Virus record (IMG/VR): IMGVR_UViG_3300025697_000818
Span: 1 to 28,956 of that record
Reading direction: 5' to 3' (one strand)
DNA: 28,956 nucleotides
Source of the DNA: a virus
Below are positions 1 to 24,244 of the stretch, in pieces. The notes beneath the pieces are model-generated. The model saw only the letters and a program-made list of their open reading frames with translations, was not told where the DNA came from and made no database searches. Both the position numbers and the translations under genes were made by a program. Every line of letters starts with the position of its first letter. Position 1 is the stretch's first letter.

Positions 1-212
1 CTCACTACTGCCTTAGTCAATCCATTTACTGCACGTTTTGAAATTGATTCTTCAATGTGTCTTATTCTGTGAGTTTGGCCTGCATGTTTACCGTCTTGCT
101 TATCTATTTCAGTGTAGGCGTTAAAGATTGAACCAGTGTATTTTATGACTCCGCAATCTACATCGTTTATTTCTTTGAACCTTACTAGTATTTGAGCCTT
201 TTTAGTTTTCAT
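1..212 (-). CDS. Hypothetical protein, 3' end beyond window
   Basis: A partial gene whose first 70 codons are visible. It starts at an ATG with GAGG nearby (GAGGTTAATT then ATG), begins MKTKKAQILVRFKEINDVDC and runs off the left edge without a stop. The start lies 11 bases inside the end of the radical-SAM gene, so it is very likely translated from the same mRNA. The visible part is charged and has no membrane segment. I do not recognise a family. If the radical-SAM and methyltransferase genes form a modification unit, this would be its third member by position only. Confidence 0.75.
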   Translation of the reverse strand, partial: MKTKKAQILVRFKEINDVDCGVIKYTGSIFNAYTEIDKQDGKHAGQTHRIRHIEESISKRAVNGLTKAVV

Positions 213-6780: not shown

Positions 6781-7962
6781 CTAACCCTTTATTACTGCTA
6801 ATGGTTTCAATTTAACCTTAATTTTAACCAAGTCAGATTGATTATCCATAACTGTATCTATATCTTTGTATGCTCCCGGTGCTTCGTCAAGGTTTCCTTC
6901 ATGTCGTATTCCGTGGATGACACCCATGTCGTCCATCAATTTAATCTGAGCGTTTAAATCAAGGTTGTTCTTTGCTGCAGTTCTGCTCATTTTGCGACCT
7001 GCCCCGTGTGAGCATGAGTTAAACGATTCAGGATTGCCAAGCCCCTCAACGATATACGAAGATGTTCCCTGTGATCCGGGTATAATACCAACCTCTCCAA
7101 GTCTCGCAGACGTTGCGCCCTTACGGTGTAAGATAACGTTTTTGCCGAAATGGTTTTCCCATCTAGCGTAATTGTGGTGCATGTTTATTTCTGGTTCAAA
7201 CTCACATTCAACCACATCATTAAACGCTTTCTTTATTTCTCTAAGCATAATTCGCCTGTTAATATACGCAAAATCAAGGGCGTAATTCATTGCTTCCATA
7301 TATTCTTTTGCTTCGTAAGTATCGATAGGTAAAAAGGCAAGACCATCTTCACCCTTAAAACTAGGTACGTTTGAATACCATCTAGTACAAAGTTTCTGAG
7401 CAAGTTTATTATATTCCTTCGCTATCTTGTATCCGAAGTTCCTACTGCCAGAATGAACCATCACCCATATAAAACCATCGTCACCTTTTTGTATTTCAAT
7501 GAAATGATTTCCACCACCAAGCGTTCCAAGTTGTTTCCGTGCAGATTTCAACTCTTGCTGAATAATCGGTATGTCAGGAGCAAATAAAAATCCACTCCAC
7601 TCTTGATCTTTCTTATTGTGGTTACGCCCGACCGGAACACGGCCCCTGATACCGCCCTTAAAATCAGCAGATCCACCCATAATTTGTTTCAACTGTAATT
7701 CAGTCAAATCGGTTAGGGACGTTTTAACAGCACACATGCCACACCCTATATCAACGCCTACCGCATTGGGTATAACCACGCCTACGGTAGCGAGTACGCC
7801 GCCAATTGGCATTCCGTAACCTTGATGCGAGTCCGGCATGATTGCCACATGTTTAAAAGTGAATGGTAAGTTCGCTAAATTCTTAGCCTGTTGCAATGCC
7901 CCATCTTCTATTTCGTGTAGCCACATCTTGATAGGTACTTTTTCTGTAGATATTACTTGCAT
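6781..7962 (-). CDS. rtcB: RtcB-type RNA ligase
   Basis: 393 residues, typical for a bacterial RtcB. RtcB joins RNA ends carrying 2',3'-cyclic phosphate or 3'-phosphate to 5'-OH, using GTP and Mn2+. The family's motifs are all present: MPDSHQGYGMPIGGV at 42-56, GVDIGCGM at 69-76 (Cys74 is the metal ligand), LGTLGGGNHF at 145-154, HSGSRNFG at 170-177, HHNY at 262-265, HRKGATSA at 279-286, IIPGSQGTSSY at 293-303 and SHGAGR at 318-323, where His319 would take the GMP. No residue essential to catalysis looks lost. It overlaps the zinc-ribbon gene upstream by 10 bases. A role in repairing tRNAs or mRNAs cut by host defence nucleases is plausible. Confidence 0.95.
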   Translation of the reverse strand: MQVISTEKVPIKMWLHEIEDGALQQAKNLANLPFTFKHVAIMPDSHQGYGMPIGGVLATVGVVIPNAVGVDIGCGMCAVKTSLTDLTELQLKQIMGGSADFKGGIRGRVPVGRNHNKKDQEWSGFLFAPDIPIIQQELKSARKQLGTLGGGNHFIEIQKGDDGFIWVMVHSGSRNFGYKIAKEYNKLAQKLCTRWYSNVPSFKGEDGLAFLPIDTYEAKEYMEAMNYALDFAYINRRIMLREIKKAFNDVVECEFEPEINMHHNYARWENHFGKNVILHRKGATSARLGEVGIIPGSQGTSSYIVEGLGNPESFNSCSHGAGRKMSRTAAKNNLDLNAQIKLMDDMGVIHGIRHEGNLDEAPGAYKDIDTVMDNQSDLVKIKVKLKPLAVIKG

Positions 7963-9618: not shown

Positions 9619-9677
9619 TTCTCACCTCCAAAATTAGCTAAATTATCTTGTACTTGTTTGGGTAATACTGAAATCAT
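9615..9677 (-). CDS. Possible 20-aa coupling ORF
   Basis: An ATG overlapping the stop of the DUF1376 gene (ATGA) opens a 20-codon frame, MISVLPKQVQDNLANFGGEK, whose stop in turn overlaps the start of the next gene (ATGA). Overlap at both ends and the exact fit suggest a tiny translated bridge. Its last codons are also the Shine-Dalgarno of the next gene. There is no RBS of its own, so it may be only a product of terminating ribosomes. Confidence 0.3.
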   Translation of the reverse strand: MISVLPKQVQDNLANFGGEK

Positions 9678-10396
9678 TCTTGTTTATTCAGTAACATATT
9701 GTAAGCATCCCTAACCTCTGGTTGCATTTTAGATGGGTCTATTTCTTCAGGCATAAAGCTACGCCAAAAATCGTTAGATATAAATCTCTTTGGATGTCGC
9801 ATAAATTTTAATTGATCTTTGGTTGGGAAATCTTTTTTATAAACTTTCAACGAATCCATTATGGCTTGATAGTTTGTGACATTCTTTTTCCAATAAGTGA
9901 ATGTCTCTTGCTTTGCTACCTTACGTGGATATGCTTCCCAAAACTTATCGAACGCCTCAACGTTTTCTTTATTTGTTGCAATAGAAAGAGAAGGTGAAGA
10001 AGCAGTAGAAGATGAAGAAGAAGTGTTGGCCTTATGTTGAACGGACGTTGGGACACCTAAACGCTTATCAGCACTGGCCTTACCTGCTTTTCTGCATTGG
10101 TCGCTACGGACCTTTTGTTTTTTTCTTTCTTCAACAAGTCTTGGATGGTATAACAGACTTCCAGATATTTTAAACATCTTTTTTACTGGATCTCCAACCT
10201 TTTCCCATCGTCCATTTAGTCCAGATAAAACTGCAAGTATATTATCGTCATTGGGTAGGGTTCCTTGTCTGTCAGAGTTCCACGCATGGCACATTAATTG
10301 AATATAAGCACCCCTCTGTTCAGGTGTCATGCAGATGACATTCTTTGATGATAACCAGTCTTTAACGTAGAATTGGAATGCAGGAGCCTTATTCAT
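9674..10396 (-). CDS. DUF1376 replication protein (initiator/loader type)
   Basis: 240 residues. The N-terminus (PAFQFYVKDWLSSKN, MTPEQRGAYIQLMCHAW) is the DUF1376 signature of phage replication proteins: an 'A-F-x-F-Y-x-DWL' strand followed by 'GAYxxLL'. A Ser-rich linker (about 125-140) leads to FDKFWEAYPRKVAKQETFTYW, the 'FWxxYPRK' helix found at the C-terminus of helicase-loader-like phage proteins. It starts 4 bases inside the HNH gene (ATGA-type overlap). Sitting just upstream of the DnaB gene, it probably recruits the helicase to the origin. Confidence 0.85.
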   Translation of the reverse strand: MNKAPAFQFYVKDWLSSKNVICMTPEQRGAYIQLMCHAWNSDRQGTLPNDDNILAVLSGLNGRWEKVGDPVKKMFKISGSLLYHPRLVEERKKQKVRSDQCRKAGKASADKRLGVPTSVQHKANTSSSSSTASSPSLSIATNKENVEAFDKFWEAYPRKVAKQETFTYWKKNVTNYQAIMDSLKVYKKDFPTKDQLKFMRHPKRFISNDFWRSFMPEEIDPSKMQPEVRDAYNMLLNKQE

Positions 10397-10956
10397 TTTG
10401 CGCCCTTGGATGAATTACAAGACTTACACAACACTTGTAGGTTTTCAATATCATTAGAACCGCCACCCTTAACCGATACAATGTGATCTATTGCTAGATT
10501 ATGCCTTGACTGACAGATAGCACACTCATAACTAAACCTTTTGAAAACTTCTCTTCTCAATGTTTGATTTGCTAGTTCAGAATTTGCAGTTTTTCTTCTA
10601 TGGATATATGAAGTGTCGGCGCGATAATTTTCTATGCACTCTAGAATATATCCACGCAATGAATACACACCGTGAGACAATAGTCGCTTTATAATTCCCT
10701 GTTGCCGAATAGATAGGTTATTGACGGCTATATTTACGATCCTCACGTCACCCCCAATTACCATGTTTTTACACTCTGGGTCTTTAATCATTCTTTCTTT
10801 TATCTTATAAATTTCAAGGAAAATATTTAATAGATTGTTGCCCCTGGACTCTTTCATGAAAAATTCAATAACTACTGGCAACATTGCCGTATCTGAAATA
10901 TTAAACTTGAACCCCTCAAAACTATCAACACCTTTTAAATATTCAATCATATCCAT
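10393..10956 (-). CDS. HNH endonuclease with unknown N-terminal domain
   Basis: 187 residues. The C-terminus is an HNH module: YECAIC at about 144-149, then LAIDHIVSVKGGGS, then NLQVLCKSC at about 170-178. The two CxxC pairs bind structural zinc and the DH is the catalytic His. The first 120 residues are helical and unrecognised (NNLSIRQQGIIKRLLSHG). It is the first full gene behind promoter 11104 and the pseudoknot leader, with GAGGTG before its ATG. A free-standing homing nuclease or a replication-linked nuclease are both possible. Its neighbours favour the second. Confidence 0.85.
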   Translation of the reverse strand: MDMIEYLKGVDSFEGFKFNISDTAMLPVVIEFFMKESRGNNLLNIFLEIYKIKERMIKDPECKNMVIGGDVRIVNIAVNNLSIRQQGIIKRLLSHGVYSLRGYILECIENYRADTSYIHRRKTANSELANQTLRREVFKRFSYECAICQSRHNLAIDHIVSVKGGGSNDIENLQVLCKSCNSSKGAK

Positions 10957-11063
10957 ACTAACACCTCATAATACAAAAACCCCCACCCAATAAGGCACGA
11001 GAAAACCATACGGCTATATGGAGAAGCGTGTGCGCTCATTGAATGGGGATTAAATTTAATCAT
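10947..11063 (-). CDS. Leader ORF of element A, 38 aa, hydrophobic end
   Basis: ATG preceded by GGAGAAG at a good distance (GGAGAAGTAACTTC). 38 residues: a polar start (MIKFNPHSMSAHASPYSR) and a hydrophobic end (MVFSCLIGWGFLYYEVLVWI). Its Shine-Dalgarno is in the 5' arm of the first stem of RNA element A, its coding sequence covers the remaining arms, and its stop lies inside the start of the HNH gene. It may be a leader peptide whose translation decides the RNA fold, or a small membrane protein. Confidence 0.45.
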   Translation of the reverse strand: MIKFNPHSMSAHASPYSRMVFSCLIGWGFLYYEVLVWI

Positions 11064-11089
11064 GAAGTTACTTCTCCTTGGTAGCCGTA
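10981..11089 (-). ncRNA. Structured leader RNA, element A (interleaved stems)
   Basis: On the transcribed strand, stem 1 pairs TACGGCTA (11089-11082) and GGAGAAG (11077-11071) with CTTCTCC (11026-11020) and TAGCCGTA (11016-11009), 15 pairs around a small internal loop. Stem 2 pairs CCCCATTCAAT (11048-11038), in the loop of stem 1, with ATTGGGTGGGG (10991-10981), 11 of 11 positions counting two G-U pairs. The order 1-2-1'-2' gives a pseudoknot, or two exclusive folds. Stem 2 is followed by TTTTTG, like a terminator, and then TATGAGG before the HNH gene. Element B has the same plan. Confidence 0.7.
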
Positions 11090-11103
11090 CCAATGTTAAA
11101 TTA

Positions 11104-11132
11104 AAGTTACGGCTTTTTACCGTCAATGTCAA
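11104..11132 (-). promoter_or_regulatory. Sigma70-like promoter, TTGACATTGA class, for element A
   Basis: TTGACA, 17 bases and TAACTT. The -35 box continues TTGACGGTAA as in the other promoters of its class. The expected start is within about 10 bases of the first arm of element A, so the RNA would begin almost at the structure. It serves the HNH, DUF1376 and helicase genes. Confidence 0.75.
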
Positions 11133-11133
11133 G

Positions 11134-11508
11134 CTAAAAAATATTCAACCTAAAGCTGCTATCACCTTTTCTCAAAACAAAAGTAGTGTCACCGTAAACA
11201 GTCTCAGCCCCGAACCCATTCATAAGCTTGACGATAAATGTAGCTTGTTTGCTTCCGGCTATCTCTATATTCTCAAAGGTGAAATCATATAAGCAATACG
11301 GGCCGTCAAAGTGGAGATTGTGCAAAGTGGATGAACTTATCTCCCCGTTGTATTGCAACTCGACTCTGCCACTGTACTTGATAGTTTGCATAAGGCCAGT
11401 ACAGACTTCACCGTACATGTTAGCAAGCTTAGGTTTTGGATCGGTAGGTAGTGAACATGATGTTGCAATTAATGCTATGGTTATTAATGTTAGGATGTGC
11501 TTTTTCAC
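11134..11508 (-). CDS. Lipoprotein from internal GTG start
   Basis: A GTG with GGAG six bases upstream (GGAGTATATA then GTG) opens a 124-residue frame in the same frame as the zinc-knuckle gene. It starts MKKHILTLITIALIATSC, a type II signal peptide with lipobox IATSC and Cys18 as the lipidated residue, then SLPTDPKPK and a beta-rich domain (RVELQYNGEI, ATFIVKLMNGFG, DTTFVLRKGD). A phage-encoded surface lipoprotein could change the host envelope, for example against superinfection. That role is inference. An ATG at 11520 is an alternative start giving four extra residues. Confidence 0.7.
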   Translation of the reverse strand: MKKHILTLITIALIATSCSLPTDPKPKLANMYGEVCTGLMQTIKYSGRVELQYNGEISSSTLHNLHFDGPYCLYDFTFENIEIAGSKQATFIVKLMNGFGAETVYGDTTFVLRKGDSSFRLNIF

Positions 11509-11721
11509 TATATACTCCATGTAAAATTTCAAATAAACAAAGTCAAATTCTTTTTTAAACCGGAACTTATTTAAATCCAAGCACTCGACATGAAAAATTT
11601 CAGCTTCACAATTATTACCTTCATCCGTTCCGTCAATTGGAATTAGCACACACTCTTTGTCATCGTTTGTTTTGCATACTGGACATATCTTATCTTCAGG
11701 AAACTTTTCAAATGTTCTCAT
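11134..11721 (-). CDS. Zinc-knuckle protein running in frame into a lipoprotein
   Basis: From the ATG (AAAGGGGTTGACT upstream) the frame reads 195 residues. Residues about 1-70 form a small zinc-type protein: CPVC at about 14-17, then Cys residues and FHVEC, with the polar stretch LIPIDGTDEGNNCEAE seen in many short phage proteins. Residues 71 onward read as a lipoprotein (separate entry). No stop separates them. Either one fused polypeptide is made, which would bury a signal peptide in the middle, or the lipoprotein is translated from its own GTG and the zinc protein has lost its stop. The internal RBS makes the second more likely for the lipoprotein half. Confidence 0.6.
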   Translation of the reverse strand: MRTFEKFPEDKICPVCKTNDDKECVLIPIDGTDEGNNCEAEIFHVECLDLNKFRFKKEFDFVYLKFYMEYIVKKHILTLITIALIATSCSLPTDPKPKLANMYGEVCTGLMQTIKYSGRVELQYNGEISSSTLHNLHFDGPYCLYDFTFENIEIAGSKQATFIVKLMNGFGAETVYGDTTFVLRKGDSSFRLNIF

Positions 11722-11723
11722 AG

Positions 11724-11900
11724 TCAACCCCTTTCTATAAATTCAAAACCTTCATCAATGAAATACTTTCCACACTTTCCACATAGCCTAGTGTTTACCA
11801 TGTATTGATAATTGTAAGGATCGGTAACACATCTTCTTTCTGGGATGTAGAAACTGTTTTTAAGCGTACTCTTTTCTATTGGGTGTTTACATTTACGCAC
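11724..11900 (-). CDS. Cys-rich small protein, 58 aa, GTG start
   Basis: GTG preceded by a very strong Shine-Dalgarno (GGAGGTGAAGC). 58 residues: MRKCKHPIEKSTLKNSFYIP, a central RRCVTDPYNYQYMVNTRLCG with Cys24 and Cys40, CGKCG at about 40-44, and an acidic end. Cys4, His6, Cys24, Cys40 and Cys43 could form a zinc site. The stop is two bases before the next ATG, as expected in this operon. Function unknown. Confidence 0.75.
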   Translation of the reverse strand: MRKCKHPIEKSTLKNSFYIPERRCVTDPYNYQYMVNTRLCGKCGKYFIDEGFEFIERG

Positions 11901-11949
11901 GCTTCACCTCCGTTCAAATGTTTGCCAGAAAATAGGATTACTGGCGTAT

Positions 11950-12060
11950 CTATGCACTTCCCAAATTTTCGGTTAATCGTTTAATAATTAATAACGCTTC
12001 CCTATCATCCAAAATGCGCCCGTATGCACCCTCGTTACTTTCTATGAAACTAGGAACCAT
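11950..12060 (-). CDS. Hypothetical 36-aa ORF, start uncertain
   Basis: A frame ending in TAG reads, from its only ATG, MVPSFIESNEGAYGRI and later LDDREALLIIKRLTEN. The same frame is open further upstream for 15 codons (EIITDIGTL just before the ATG) and looks equally protein-like, but no ATG, GTG or TTG is found there. No Shine-Dalgarno precedes the ATG. It may be a gene that has lost its start, next to the interrupted gene at 12081. Confidence 0.35.
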   Translation of the reverse strand: MVPSFIESNEGAYGRILDDREALLIIKRLTENLGSA

Positions 12061-12080
12061 TAAAGTGCCTATGTCCGTTA

Positions 12081-12263
12081 TTATTTCAAGGTGTCTATTC
12101 CGTCAGTATGGCAAATTTCTGATGCTGGTTCTGGACATTCGCAATCAAAAAAGCTACAAGTCTCACCATCTTTGTCATAGCACACAAAGCCTTTCTTGAA
12201 GGTATCAGCGAAGGTATCAGCCTTAACTTTATCATAGTCACGTCCAAGTTATTCTTTAGTCAT
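12081..12263 (-). pseudogene. Small gene interrupted by TAA at codon 5
   Basis: ATG with GAGGAATTTTCC upstream, then MTKE, a TAA, and the same frame continues LGRDYDKVKADTFADTFKK and a Cys-rich stretch (CYDKDGE, CSFFDCECPEP, EICHTDG) to a TAA at 12081: 60 codons in all. Everything after the stop looks like a real protein, and there is no usable start codon after it. A single change of GAA (Glu, giving MTKEE) to TAA would explain it. Other genes here stop at TAA, so a changed genetic code is not supported. It is the gene directly controlled by RNA element B. Confidence 0.6.
12198..12221. repeat. 12-bp tandem duplication inside the interrupted gene
   Basis: Two exact copies of GAAGGTATCAGC side by side, giving ADTFADTF on the coding strand. 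It keeps the frame and looks like a recent slippage duplication. Confidence 0.85.
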
Positions 12264-12285
12264 GGAAAATTCCTCATATTTAAAA

Positions 12286-12389
12286 GGTCACCCGAAACAA
12301 TTTCAGAATCCATACGGCAGGCATAGAAGGAGAAAGTAAAGTGTTCCGAGTGACCAATGATTATTCAAATTAAACTCCTGTCTGCCGTA
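12286..12389 (-). ncRNA. Structured leader RNA, element B (interleaved stems)
   Basis: On the transcribed strand, stem 1 pairs TACGGCAG (12389-12382) and GGAG (12378-12375) with CTCC (12332-12329) and CTGCCGTA (12320-12313). Stem 2 pairs GGTCACTCGGAAC (12355-12343), in the loop of stem 1, with GTTTCGGGTGACC (12298-12286), 13 of 13 positions counting two G-U pairs. The order 1-2-1'-2' is that of a pseudoknot. TTTT follows stem 2, then ATATGAGG and the ATG of the interrupted gene. Promoter, TACGGC start, GGAG in the stem, T-run and ATGAGG all match element A. Confidence 0.7.
12303..12368 (-). CDS. Possible leader ORF of element B, 21 aa
   Basis: TTG with GGAG six bases upstream, where the GGAG lies in stem 1 of element B. 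It reads MNNHWSLGTLYFLLLCLPYG then Phe and TGA, hydrophobic like the leader ORF of element A. It crosses the 5' arm of stem 2 and the 3' arm of stem 1 and stops before the 3' arm of stem 2. No protein similarity is claimed. Confidence 0.35.
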   Translation of the reverse strand: MNNHWSLGTLYFLLLCLPYGF

Positions 12390-12396
12390 CACCTAT

Positions 12397-12425
12397 ACGT
12401 TAACTATATTTATTATCAATGTCAA
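12397..12425 (-). promoter_or_regulatory. Sigma70-like promoter, TTGACATTGA class, for element B
   Basis: TTGACA, 17 bases and TAACGT. The expected transcription start falls within a few bases of the first arm of element B, as with the promoter of element A. Confidence 0.7.
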
Positions 12426-12628
12426 GCAAAAGTTTAATAAAATGGCTGTACACCTTATTCCCCATTTCCAGTTGCGAACTGGACGATACCTGTAAGCATT
12501 CAGGTCTAGTGGTGCGCTTCATTGAGAGGCGTTAGGGCATTTCTATTGTTATTCAGTTTACAATCATTAGTTATTGTTTGCAGAATCTAACGAATTTCGG
12601 TAGTATTTGCAAAGGATCGCTAACGTCA
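12426..12628. other. Non-coding stretch with small palindromes and a degenerate repeat
   Basis: I find no convincing gene between the promoter at 12397 and the gene ending at 12678. The stretch holds a perfect 7-bp hairpin (TCCAGTT, loop GCG, AACTGGA at 12467-12483), a second hairpin with ACCTG/CAGGT arms (12488-12505), and two copies of TTTGCA plus 4 to 8 bases plus CTAACG (12577-12592 and 12606-12625). With the TGTACA array next to it, it is the best candidate here for a control region or replication origin. Confidence 0.45.
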
Positions 12629-12696
12629 TGTACAAATTTTACCGTTTTATGTACACGTTGCACATGTCATGTACAAATTATGGTGTTTCTTGTACA
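12629..12696. repeat. Phased array of four TGTACA palindromes
   Basis: TGTACA at 12629, 12650, 12670 and 12691, spaced 21, 20 and 21 bp, i.e. two helical turns, so all four lie on one face of the DNA. They belong to two diverged direct repeats with a 41-bp period starting TCATGTACAAATT (12626 and 12667). In the right copy CATGTACAA and TTGTACATG form a 9-bp stem. The array begins inside the last codons of the neighbouring gene. It looks like binding sites for a dimeric protein. Confidence 0.65.
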
Positions 12697-13052
12697 TGTT
12701 CACCATCGTCAATACTATTAAAATGTTCATTGGGGTGGTGACATTCAGCAAACTCCACTAAACATAGATTTGCCACATCAACTAAAAACTCTTTGTTACC
12801 GGTCCTGTCAAATTCCTGCAACCTTTTAATCATTGACTTAACGTGATTAAACTTTGGTTTATTAGGCGCACCAATGAGGCCATAACGATAAGCACCGACC
12901 GCCAATCTATTGCGCATCAATTGCTCAAACTCGTCAGACCATTCAGATTTCTTCACATCTTCATAGCGCATCTTTTCTGCCTGCTCTTTTCCTTTTTCAG
13001 GCAAGCCGCATTTCCAACGCCATAAATTCATTAAATAGTAATTACGATTCAT
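12678..13052 (-). CDS. Conserved phage-type protein, 124 aa
   Basis: 124 residues, RBS AGCGAGGTAAC. The middle reads MRNRLAVGAYRYGLIGAP, then HVKSMIKRLQEFDRTGN, then EFLVDVANLCLVEF and later HHPNEHFNSIDDGEH. This pattern, 'R-L-x-GA-RYG', 'S..RL..Y..TGN.E.LVD.AN', is familiar from short phage proteins of unknown role that look like an all-alpha NTP-pyrophosphatase (MazG/DUF5664-like) fold. The fold is a suggestion only. Its final codons are part of the TGTACA array. Confidence 0.7.
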   Translation of the reverse strand: MNRNYYLMNLWRWKCGLPEKGKEQAEKMRYEDVKKSEWSDEFEQLMRNRLAVGAYRYGLIGAPNKPKFNHVKSMIKRLQEFDRTGNKEFLVDVANLCLVEFAECHHPNEHFNSIDDGEHVQETP

Positions 13053-22996: not shown

Positions 22997-24244
22997 TTAA
23001 TTTGATATTTTTTCAAAGTTAACAGAGAATGCAGCCGGATCATCAAACACTACCGAACCACCCCAATCAAGATTACCATTATTTACTCTATACTGTATAG
23101 AAATCTCATCACCTGAATTAACAAAAACAGTTCCAATAAACGACAGCATTCCATCGTCAGCAGATTTAAACGCTCTGTCATCGTTAGATTGTAAACACCT
23201 CGCCTCATCAGTATTTACTAGCACTCTAATGTAAAGCTTAGCATCAGTGTTGCCTCCACTCCATTCCCAGTGTCCGCAACCCTGAACTCTAACAATACCG
23301 TCAACACTTGTAATGAACCCGGTTGAATCAGCATTAAACGTAAAACCTTTTGTAGATTCAACGGCAATTAATGTATCCCATGCCACATCATACCAAGTAT
23401 CAGTGCCGGCACTTGCGAGGTCTACATTTCTATGAAATTGAGCGACTTGTATTTTGCTGTTAACATATTCATCAACAAGTAAGCTCTCTGTAAAGTGTCC
23501 AGAACCGTTTACTTCAAGCGTTGAGTCTGGGGATGTTTCATTTATACCTACGTTTCCACCATTAGGGTTCAATAATAGTGCGTAGTTTGTTGCTAAGTTT
23601 GTTTTGTTATATACCTGAATCCAGCCCTTGCCCGTAGATGCAAAATCACCGCCAAAATCTATAACACCGACACCGGCAGCAGAGCCGAGGCGCATTACAC
23701 CTGTTGGAGCTGTTCCTGAACTAGCGGGGAGGCCAACATCTCCCCTCACGTGTAAATTTAAAACAGGAGTAACAAGCCCAACTCCGGCCATTGCGTCGAA
23801 TACTCCATTACCCGTTACTCTAAATGTACCATTAACATCTAATCCATAAGTTGGTGTAATATCATTAATCCCAACCTGCCCGCCATTTTCTACAAACAGC
23901 CCCGTTCCACCATCTTCAAATAAGCTTAACCCTGCTGAAGTATTGGCTTGTACTTTGTCGGTTAAGACTGAGGTTAAAAAATAACCAGTGCCAACTGAAT
24001 CAACATTAAACGTCAAAACTCCAAGCGCATTATACATTGATATATTCCACTCATCACCACCGGTAACCATCCAGAATTTGACGGCTGCGGAATCAACGGT
24101 GGAAATATCTGCTGACGTTGATGCGTTTTCAATTGCAGAATTTACATAAGCATGACCCAGACTGTTAAAATTCTTAGTCCATTTTGATTGTCCGAAAAGT
24201 AAAGCCGGAACAAGTAACGCTAGAAGTAATGTTTTATTTTTCAC
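22997..24244 (-). CDS. Secreted fibre-like protein with C1q-like C-terminus
   Basis: 415 residues from GTG (AAAGGAGATAAC upstream). Residues 1-19 are a Sec signal peptide (MKNKTLLLALLVPALLFGQ). Two copies of a fibre motif follow: QVGINDITPTYGLDVNGTF (about 123-141) and NVGINETSPDSTLEVNG (about 231-247), the 'GIGT..P...LDVNG' unit of phage tail fibres and surface adhesins. The last 130 residues have a C1q/TNF-like jelly-roll pattern (GFITSVDGIVRVQGCG, GTVFVNSGDEISIQYRVN). A tail fibre with a secretion signal is unusual. It may be exported by the host or be a host-derived adhesin. Confidence 0.75.
   Translation of the reverse strand: MKNKTLLLALLVPALLFGQSKWTKNFNSLGHAYVNSAIENASTSADISTVDSAAVKFWMVTGGDEWNISMYNALGVLTFNVDSVGTGYFLTSVLTDKVQANTSAGLSLFEDGGTGLFVENGGQVGINDITPTYGLDVNGTFRVTGNGVFDAMAGVGLVTPVLNLHVRGDVGLPASSGTAPTGVMRLGSAAGVGVIDFGGDFASTGKGWIQVYNKTNLATNYALLLNPNGGNVGINETSPDSTLEVNGSGHFTESLLVDEYVNSKIQVAQFHRNVDLASAGTDTWYDVAWDTLIAVESTKGFTFNADSTGFITSVDGIVRVQGCGHWEWSGGNTDAKLYIRVLVNTDEARCLQSNDDRAFKSADDGMLSFIGTVFVNSGDEISIQYRVNNGNLDWGGSVVFDDPAAFSVNFEKISN

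Follow-up and report, generated by a model that had tools for sequence, protein, structure and literature searches.

Described leaders of replication genes

In the leaders of the plasmid replication genes repZ and repA a hairpin precedes the gene, an upstream segment pairs beside this hairpin and the pairing letters change quickly. The leader of the replication gene repC of plasmid pT181 contains a terminator-like hairpin, and the SAM-II and preQ1 riboswitches form an H-type pseudoknot in a 5′ leader. In work cited in PMC10724649 and PMC7646527, repZ of the IncIα plasmid ColIb-P9 and repA of IncB and IncL/M plasmids are reported to be controlled by a leader peptide together with a pseudoknot, and repC of pT181 by a countertranscript-driven attenuator in the leader of the replication gene (cited in PMC10724649). 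In type III toxin–antitoxin systems (ToxIN) the order is promoter, pseudoknot RNA, terminator and gene (PMC8860590).

Here we describe two elements, A and B, in a sequence of 28,956 bases of an uncultivated phage from IMG/VR (the whole analysed stretch, referred to as the window). Each has a promoter, two interleaved stems and a leader reading frame ahead of a gene. By analogy, the leader peptide and pseudoknot control of plasmid replication genes of the IncI repYZ type would be nearest in its working. The likeness comprises the coupling of a leader ORF with a replication gene (for the phage only the arrangement is seen, without coupling data), a hairpin before the gene, a predicted upstream pairing with a segment beside this hairpin and fast-changing pairing letters. 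In contrast to repZ and repA, the two stems of the phage element interleave, stem 2 is often followed by a terminator-like T-run, both stems lie ahead of the next start codon, on which the leader ORF stops, and the genes in question code for phage primosomal proteins and others, not for RepA or RepZ initiators. The phage could also use an antisense-controlled leader of the IncI or pT181 kind, in which a small countertranscript would pair with the 5′ arm of stem 1 and block leader translation or trigger termination; the plasmid ingredients (leader ORF, loop-type pairing, replication gene and fast-changing pairing letters) are all present. However, antisense RNA defines the plasmid systems, and a consensus scan, confined to A and B, did not find a promoter on the opposite strand inside either element, and we regard this explanation as improbable.

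As with pT181 repC, a replication gene is preceded by a leader that contains a terminator-like hairpin, but the two stems of the phage element have no segment in common and are thus not mutually exclusive, the phage element has a leader ORF, and no antisense RNA has been shown. It also shares the H-type topology in a 5′ leader with SAM-II and preQ1, but has neither a conserved ligand core nor an Rfam match, and its stems are not conserved in sequence. The order promoter, pseudoknot, terminator and gene is that of ToxIN, whereas the phage stems are much longer and both tandem antitoxin repeats and a toxin relative are missing: between 10900 and 12800 no tandem antitoxin repeats were found (one 9-bp and one 12-bp short duplication lie elsewhere in this region), and the search for a ToxN-like gene gave no toxin-like PADLOC match and only weak HNH matches, an HNH endonuclease gene following A. 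The type III toxin–antitoxin reading, which fails on repeats and toxin, was down-weighted. A limited literature search gave no report of such a leader before phage primosomal genes.

Layout and comparison of elements A and B

Both elements lie on the minus strand. The features of element B are:

12397–12425, minus strand: promoter, TTGACA (12425–12420), 17-nt spacer and TAACGT (12402–12397); from the sequence, a promoter motif common to the phage
12313–12389, minus strand: stem 1, TACGGCAG (12389–12382) with CTGCCGTA (12320–12313) and GGAG (12378–12375) with CTCC (12332–12329); from sequence and folding
12286–12355, minus strand: stem 2, GGTCACTCGGAACA (12355–12342) with TGTTTCGGGTGACC (12299–12286), interleaved with stem 1 and followed by TTTT (12285–12282); from sequence and folding
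12260–12364, minus strand: leader frame of 34 codons plus stop, open across both stems, its TGA overlapping the next ATG; from the sequence
12081–12263, minus strand: downstream gene, ATG at 12263 preceded by GAGG (12275–12272), with an in-frame TAA at codon 5 (MTKE*LGRDYDKV...); from the sequence

Element A (11132–10975) has the same plan with longer stems and heads an operon of an HNH and a DUF1376 gene:

11104–11132, minus strand: promoter, TTGACA (11132–11127), 17-nt spacer and TAACTT (11109–11104); from the sequence
11009–11093, minus strand: stem 1, TACGGCTA (11089–11082) with TAGCCGTA (11016–11009) and GGAGAAG (11077–11071) with CTTCTCC (11026–11020); from sequence and folding
10975–11048, minus strand: stem 2, CCCCATTCAATGAG (11048–11035) and GCAC (11033–11030) with GTGC (10998–10995) and CTTATTGGGTGGGG (10994–10981), then a T-run; from sequence, scan and folding
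10947–11063, minus strand: leader ORF of 38 aa, starting 10 nt past GGAG and overlapping the HNH gene start; from the sequence
10393–10956, minus strand: HNH endonuclease gene (Pfam PF01844)
9674–10396, minus strand: DUF1376 primosomal protein gene, overlapping the HNH stop (Pfam PF07120, phrog_9327)

The arms of B follow the order a-b-a′-b′, the interleaved arrangement of an H-type pseudoknot, and the linker from GGAG to the first arm of stem 2 is A+U-rich. A preliminary description of B had named the promoter, stem 1, the interleaved stem 2, the TTTT and the gene start, all of which were recovered on the minus strand; its stem 2 is indeed interleaved and has two G–U pairs, but counts 14 pairs instead of 13. 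The first codon of the leader frame is ATA in B where A has ATG, in both cases 10 nt after GGAG. The TAA interrupting the gene after B lies at 12249–12251 of the window and the frame stays open for 55 more codons; near-identical contigs have identical letters here. The T-run is GTTTTTGT after stem 2 of A and TTTTAAAT, a weak one, after that of B. Judged from its ATA leader start and the interrupted gene, B is probably a weakened copy whose stems are intact. The 5′ arm of stem 1 of A can alternatively sit in a hairpin, TTGG-TACGGCTA-CCAA (11093–11078). A third copy of GCCGTA lies in the promoter spacer of A (window 11109–11115); together with the 5′ arm of stem 1 it makes up an inverted repeat, AGCCGTA/TACGGCT.

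In the window the core GTACGGC...GCCGTA is present only in A and in B, once in each, with 0.01 occurrences expected. We scanned both strands of 54 kb, the window joined to the remainder of a near-identical phage contig of 52 kb, with a custom search for interleaved stems ahead of a T-run. The first two ranks go to A (56.0) and B (55.2), the next site scores 42.4, and the maximum in 300 dinucleotide shuffles is 52.8. Equal interleaved stems in random shuffles had been named beforehand as a result that would end the claim; the shuffles did not reproduce the scores of A and B. When only nested folding is considered A is remarkable (z −3.65) and B is not (z −1.5). The latter value would fit chance pairing near a promoter, but the whole-genome shuffles, the covariation and the position of the plan in other phages (see below) leave this explanation scarcely conceivable.

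Comparison of A with B gave for stem 1 two two-sided changes and six unchanged pairs, and for stem 2 seven two-sided changes, three one-sided changes and four unchanged pairs, with no broken pair in either stem. In this pairwise comparison the outer letters of stem 1 are retained, whereas stem 2 has changed. A MAFFT alignment of A with B misplaces the stems. In folding of the nascent RNA of A and B, stem 1 forms first (∼0.99 once its 3′ arm is made) and then stem 2. Rough energies favour the pseudoknot for A and B when all helix parts are counted, but in just 2 of 23 members overall, and the coexistence of the stems is thus not decided by energies. Statistical support for the small 5′ hairpin is weak. 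A local hairpin, CCAUAU-AGCC-GUAUGG in A and UCUAUGC-CUGCC-GUAUGGA in B, is mutually exclusive with stem 1; it is seen in these two sequences only.

A match to a known Rfam family, which would have ended the novelty, was not found: Rfam release 15 gave no match at the gathering score for the whole window, none for 10950–12500 at E up to 5, and none for 35 loci of related phages, some carrying the element and some not.

The same plan in other phages

Sequence searches did not lead beyond the phage itself. Exact-core scans of viral contigs and of a collection of bacterial and archaeal genomes returned near-identical contigs of the same phage and otherwise coding or chance matches, and the contigs found by sequence search are identical to the window across the overlap. 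Homologues of DnaB, of the terminase and of the 124-aa neighbour were found in the same phage only, and blastn of B against isolate phages gave nothing significant. The phage is remote from isolates, with a terminase ∼25% identical to its best matches.

Since A heads the HNH–DUF1376 operon, other phages were gathered via the DUF1376 primosomal protein, and the regions upstream of the DUF1376 genes were scanned for the plan while sequence was ignored. In this way the plan was found without sequence conservation in ∼20 sequence families, just before the start codon. Three examples are:

L217: GTAGAAA/TTTCTAC with ACATCCGTCAGTCTGCGCG/CGCGTGGGCTGGCGGATGT-TTTTTG
L140: TGATACCCAGC/GCTGGGTATCA with GACACACCGACG/CGTTGGTGTGTC
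L282: ACAACGAA/TTCGTTGT with CATCAACCCAGCCAATCCCGG/CCGGGGTTGGTTGGGTTGGTG

In six other phages the best interleaved site of the record lies 6–16 nt before the DUF1376 gene or, in G415, one of the six, before a small gene heading its operon. Among 802 ORF starts of ten phage records, element A and five DUF1376 genes take the six top scores, followed by a score of 49.4. In representatives of the DUF1376 clusters (128 kb), stems together with a leader ORF were found at 17 sites of the coding strand, against none on the complement and an average of 0.4 in a shuffled set; three of the 17 lie 3′ of the DUF1376 start and could be due to chance. In addition, the genes after other members are a DNA methylase (L226), an HTH gene (L294) and small genes (L278, L143), an HNH gene following A; the gene names for L226 and L294 are our reading of the translations. 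It had been proposed to look for the layout before unrelated genes of metagenomic phages, and this succeeds once the plan and not sequence identity is sought.

A scan of 30 DUF1376 loci in Pseudomonadota genomes did not reveal the plan (28 of 399 such genomes have DUF1376 genes, the element being absent there), and prophage-type DUF1376 loci as well as about half of the viral DUF1376 clusters are without the element. Thus, the element is linked to this gene but not required by it.

Two named phages carry a member, so that the element is directly testable. In the Acinetobacter phage vB_AbaS_Silvergun (OZ038342.1) it consists of GGTAGGAG/CTCCTACC and a stem 2 of 25 pairs, and its leader ORF of 29 aa, which ends on the start of the next gene, is already annotated as a CDS; the other phage is the Stenotrophomonas phage CUB19 (OM638088.1). 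These two members (loci L298 and L303) have a 51-nt flank that is 98% identical and wholly different stems and next genes; from the sequences alone, it looks as if the variable part had been exchanged or were evolving fast. L294 has a second element, ACCCCTGATAGGCAAAATG/CATTTTGCCTATCAGGGGT, ∼620 nt upstream of the DUF1376 gene and before an HTH-like gene, that is two copies as with A and B. At position 23465 of G410 (L196) the second-best interleaved site of that record (56.2), followed by TTTTTTTATG, is possibly another element.

Four close pairs (L217/L216, L225/L140, L292/L293 and A/B) were compared for covariation. Stem 1 shows nine two-sided and no one-sided changes, stem 2 shows 16 two-sided and six one-sided changes, and no pair is broken in either; both stems together thus have 25 two-sided compensatory changes. 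Wobble interruptions are of the RNA-strand kind, with a ratio of G–U to A–C of 32:2. As the search itself allowed G–U, the count was repeated from Watson–Crick-only seeds and gave 10:2. The inverted repeats could act as DNA, for example as an operator, a replication origin or a recombination site, and their place next to a gene for a primosomal protein would be fitting for an origin or an operator. However, the wobble pairs, the strand-specific promoter, T-run and leader ORF and the complement without sites all speak for RNA, and we consider a role as DNA very improbable. The claim of a conserved RNA plan without described counterpart is supported by the shuffles, the lack of Rfam matches and the occurrence in other phages. 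A ligand-sensing riboswitch or a ribozyme is supported by nothing, because the stem and loop sequences are not conserved between families.

Leader ORF and proposed mode of control

In a set of 22 elements picked by their stems alone, we looked for leader ORFs that begin close to the 5′ arm of stem 1 or in the linker leading up to stem 2, pass through the stems and end between −12 and +30 nt of the next start. An ATG-started leader ORF of 28–43 codons is present in 15 of the 22, against 2.6 expected, and is lacking under this rule in the other seven. In 12 of the 22, two of them with GTG starts, the stop begins one base into the next start codon, which gives an ATGA or GTGA overlap. Between families the leader peptides do not resemble each other. 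In 11 of 23 members the 8 nt after stem 2 include at least five T, which makes transcription termination likely in those, RNA 3′-end data being unavailable; the members without a T-run have a strong hairpin directly before the start codon. The G+C-rich hairpin and T-run of an intrinsic terminator are present in A and B, with the run of B being weak, but a consensus terminator tool misses both because of the long loop. The preliminary description had the plan right but missed the leader ORF overlapping the next start and the frequent intrinsic terminator in stem 2.

The overlapping leader ORF together with the terminator or hairpin before the gene supports control by leader translation. Thus, we suggest, with a probability of about 0.5, that the phage has two copies, A and B, of a 5′-leader control RNA in which translation of the leader gates the next gene. 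What is observed is the plan and its position, the covariation in stem 1 and stem 2, the leader ORF and the RNA-strand orientation of the wobble pairs; the mechanism is inferred, without expression data. Transcription would start at the promoter with the 5′ arm of stem 1 near +1, at times presented in the loop of a small hairpin. The leader ORF, which begins near this arm or in the linker, would be read across both stems up to its stop on the next start codon. Stem 2, a predicted strong hairpin ending 0–24 nt ahead of the next start and followed in about half of the members by a terminator-like T-run, would halt transcription, bar ribosomes from the gene, or both. A ribosome on the leader ORF would melt stem 2 and restart at the overlapping start codon, so that the gene would be expressed only during leader translation. 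Stem 1, able to form first on the nascent RNA, might close around the leader start and limit or time leader translation, and may also bring the arms of stem 2 together where its 3′ arm abuts the 3′ arm of stem 2; its contribution is the least certain step. Counter-evidence to this leader model comes from B, which is without a normal leader start and whose gene is interrupted. The seven members lacking an ATG-started leader ORF, the DUF1376 clusters and loci that lack the element and the energies, which favour the pseudoknot in few members, also weigh against it.

Alternatively, a phage or host protein or RNA might bind stem 1, whose GTACGGC/GCCGTATGG is kept in A and B, and decide on termination at stem 2, the leader ORF being secondary. 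The promoter, the terminator-like stem 2 with its T-run and a ribosome binding site 12–14 nt further on, without room for a second promoter, would suit such an attenuator, as would constant outer letters of stem 1 beside a completely changed stem 2. Nevertheless, other phages do not keep the letters of stem 1, the enrichment of the leader ORF is strong and half of the members lack the T-run; we hold this explanation to be unlikely. The ∼110 nt between promoter and terminator-like stem in A and B could also yield stand-alone trans-acting RNAs, with the downstream genes reached by read-through. The constant position before a start codon, the leader ORF overlapping this start and the members without a T-run argue against small-RNA genes, which appear rather improbable.

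Returning to control by leader translation, the results point to a widespread and apparently undescribed device of phage gene control. It is an even bet that it represents a widespread, undescribed class of leader RNA that is defined by its plan, interleaved stems in a leader ORF overlapping a start, and controls replication and early genes of phages, its stems diversifying quickly, which would give every phage or copy a pairing code of its own. There is a real chance that this plan-defined leader is a new class and not merely a variant of known control. RNA families without shared stem letters are invisible to sequence searches; here position and plan revealed one. If the mechanism is true, phages control replication genes by a leader peptide and a pseudoknot much as plasmids do, and with stems that change so fast, specificity between co-infecting phages or between copies becomes a testable question.

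The motif TTGACA-15..19-TAnnnT is common to other gene heads of the phage. This promoter family (TTGACATT, ∼17 nt, TAnnnT) also precedes several genes without the element, at 2687, 20896 and 24520 (minus strand) of the window and in the rest of the contig (G001). Upstream of B, the intergenic stretch 12440–12700 contains four TGTACA motifs in two direct repeats (12625–12659 and 12666–12700), and at 12451–12514 there is a fold of two hairpins closed by CACC...GGTG; this stretch is a candidate for an origin, an operator or a structured RNA. Finally, the window encodes at 6781–7962 an RtcB RNA ligase that is ∼44% identical to RtcB of large phages, that is RNA repair in a 52-kb phage.
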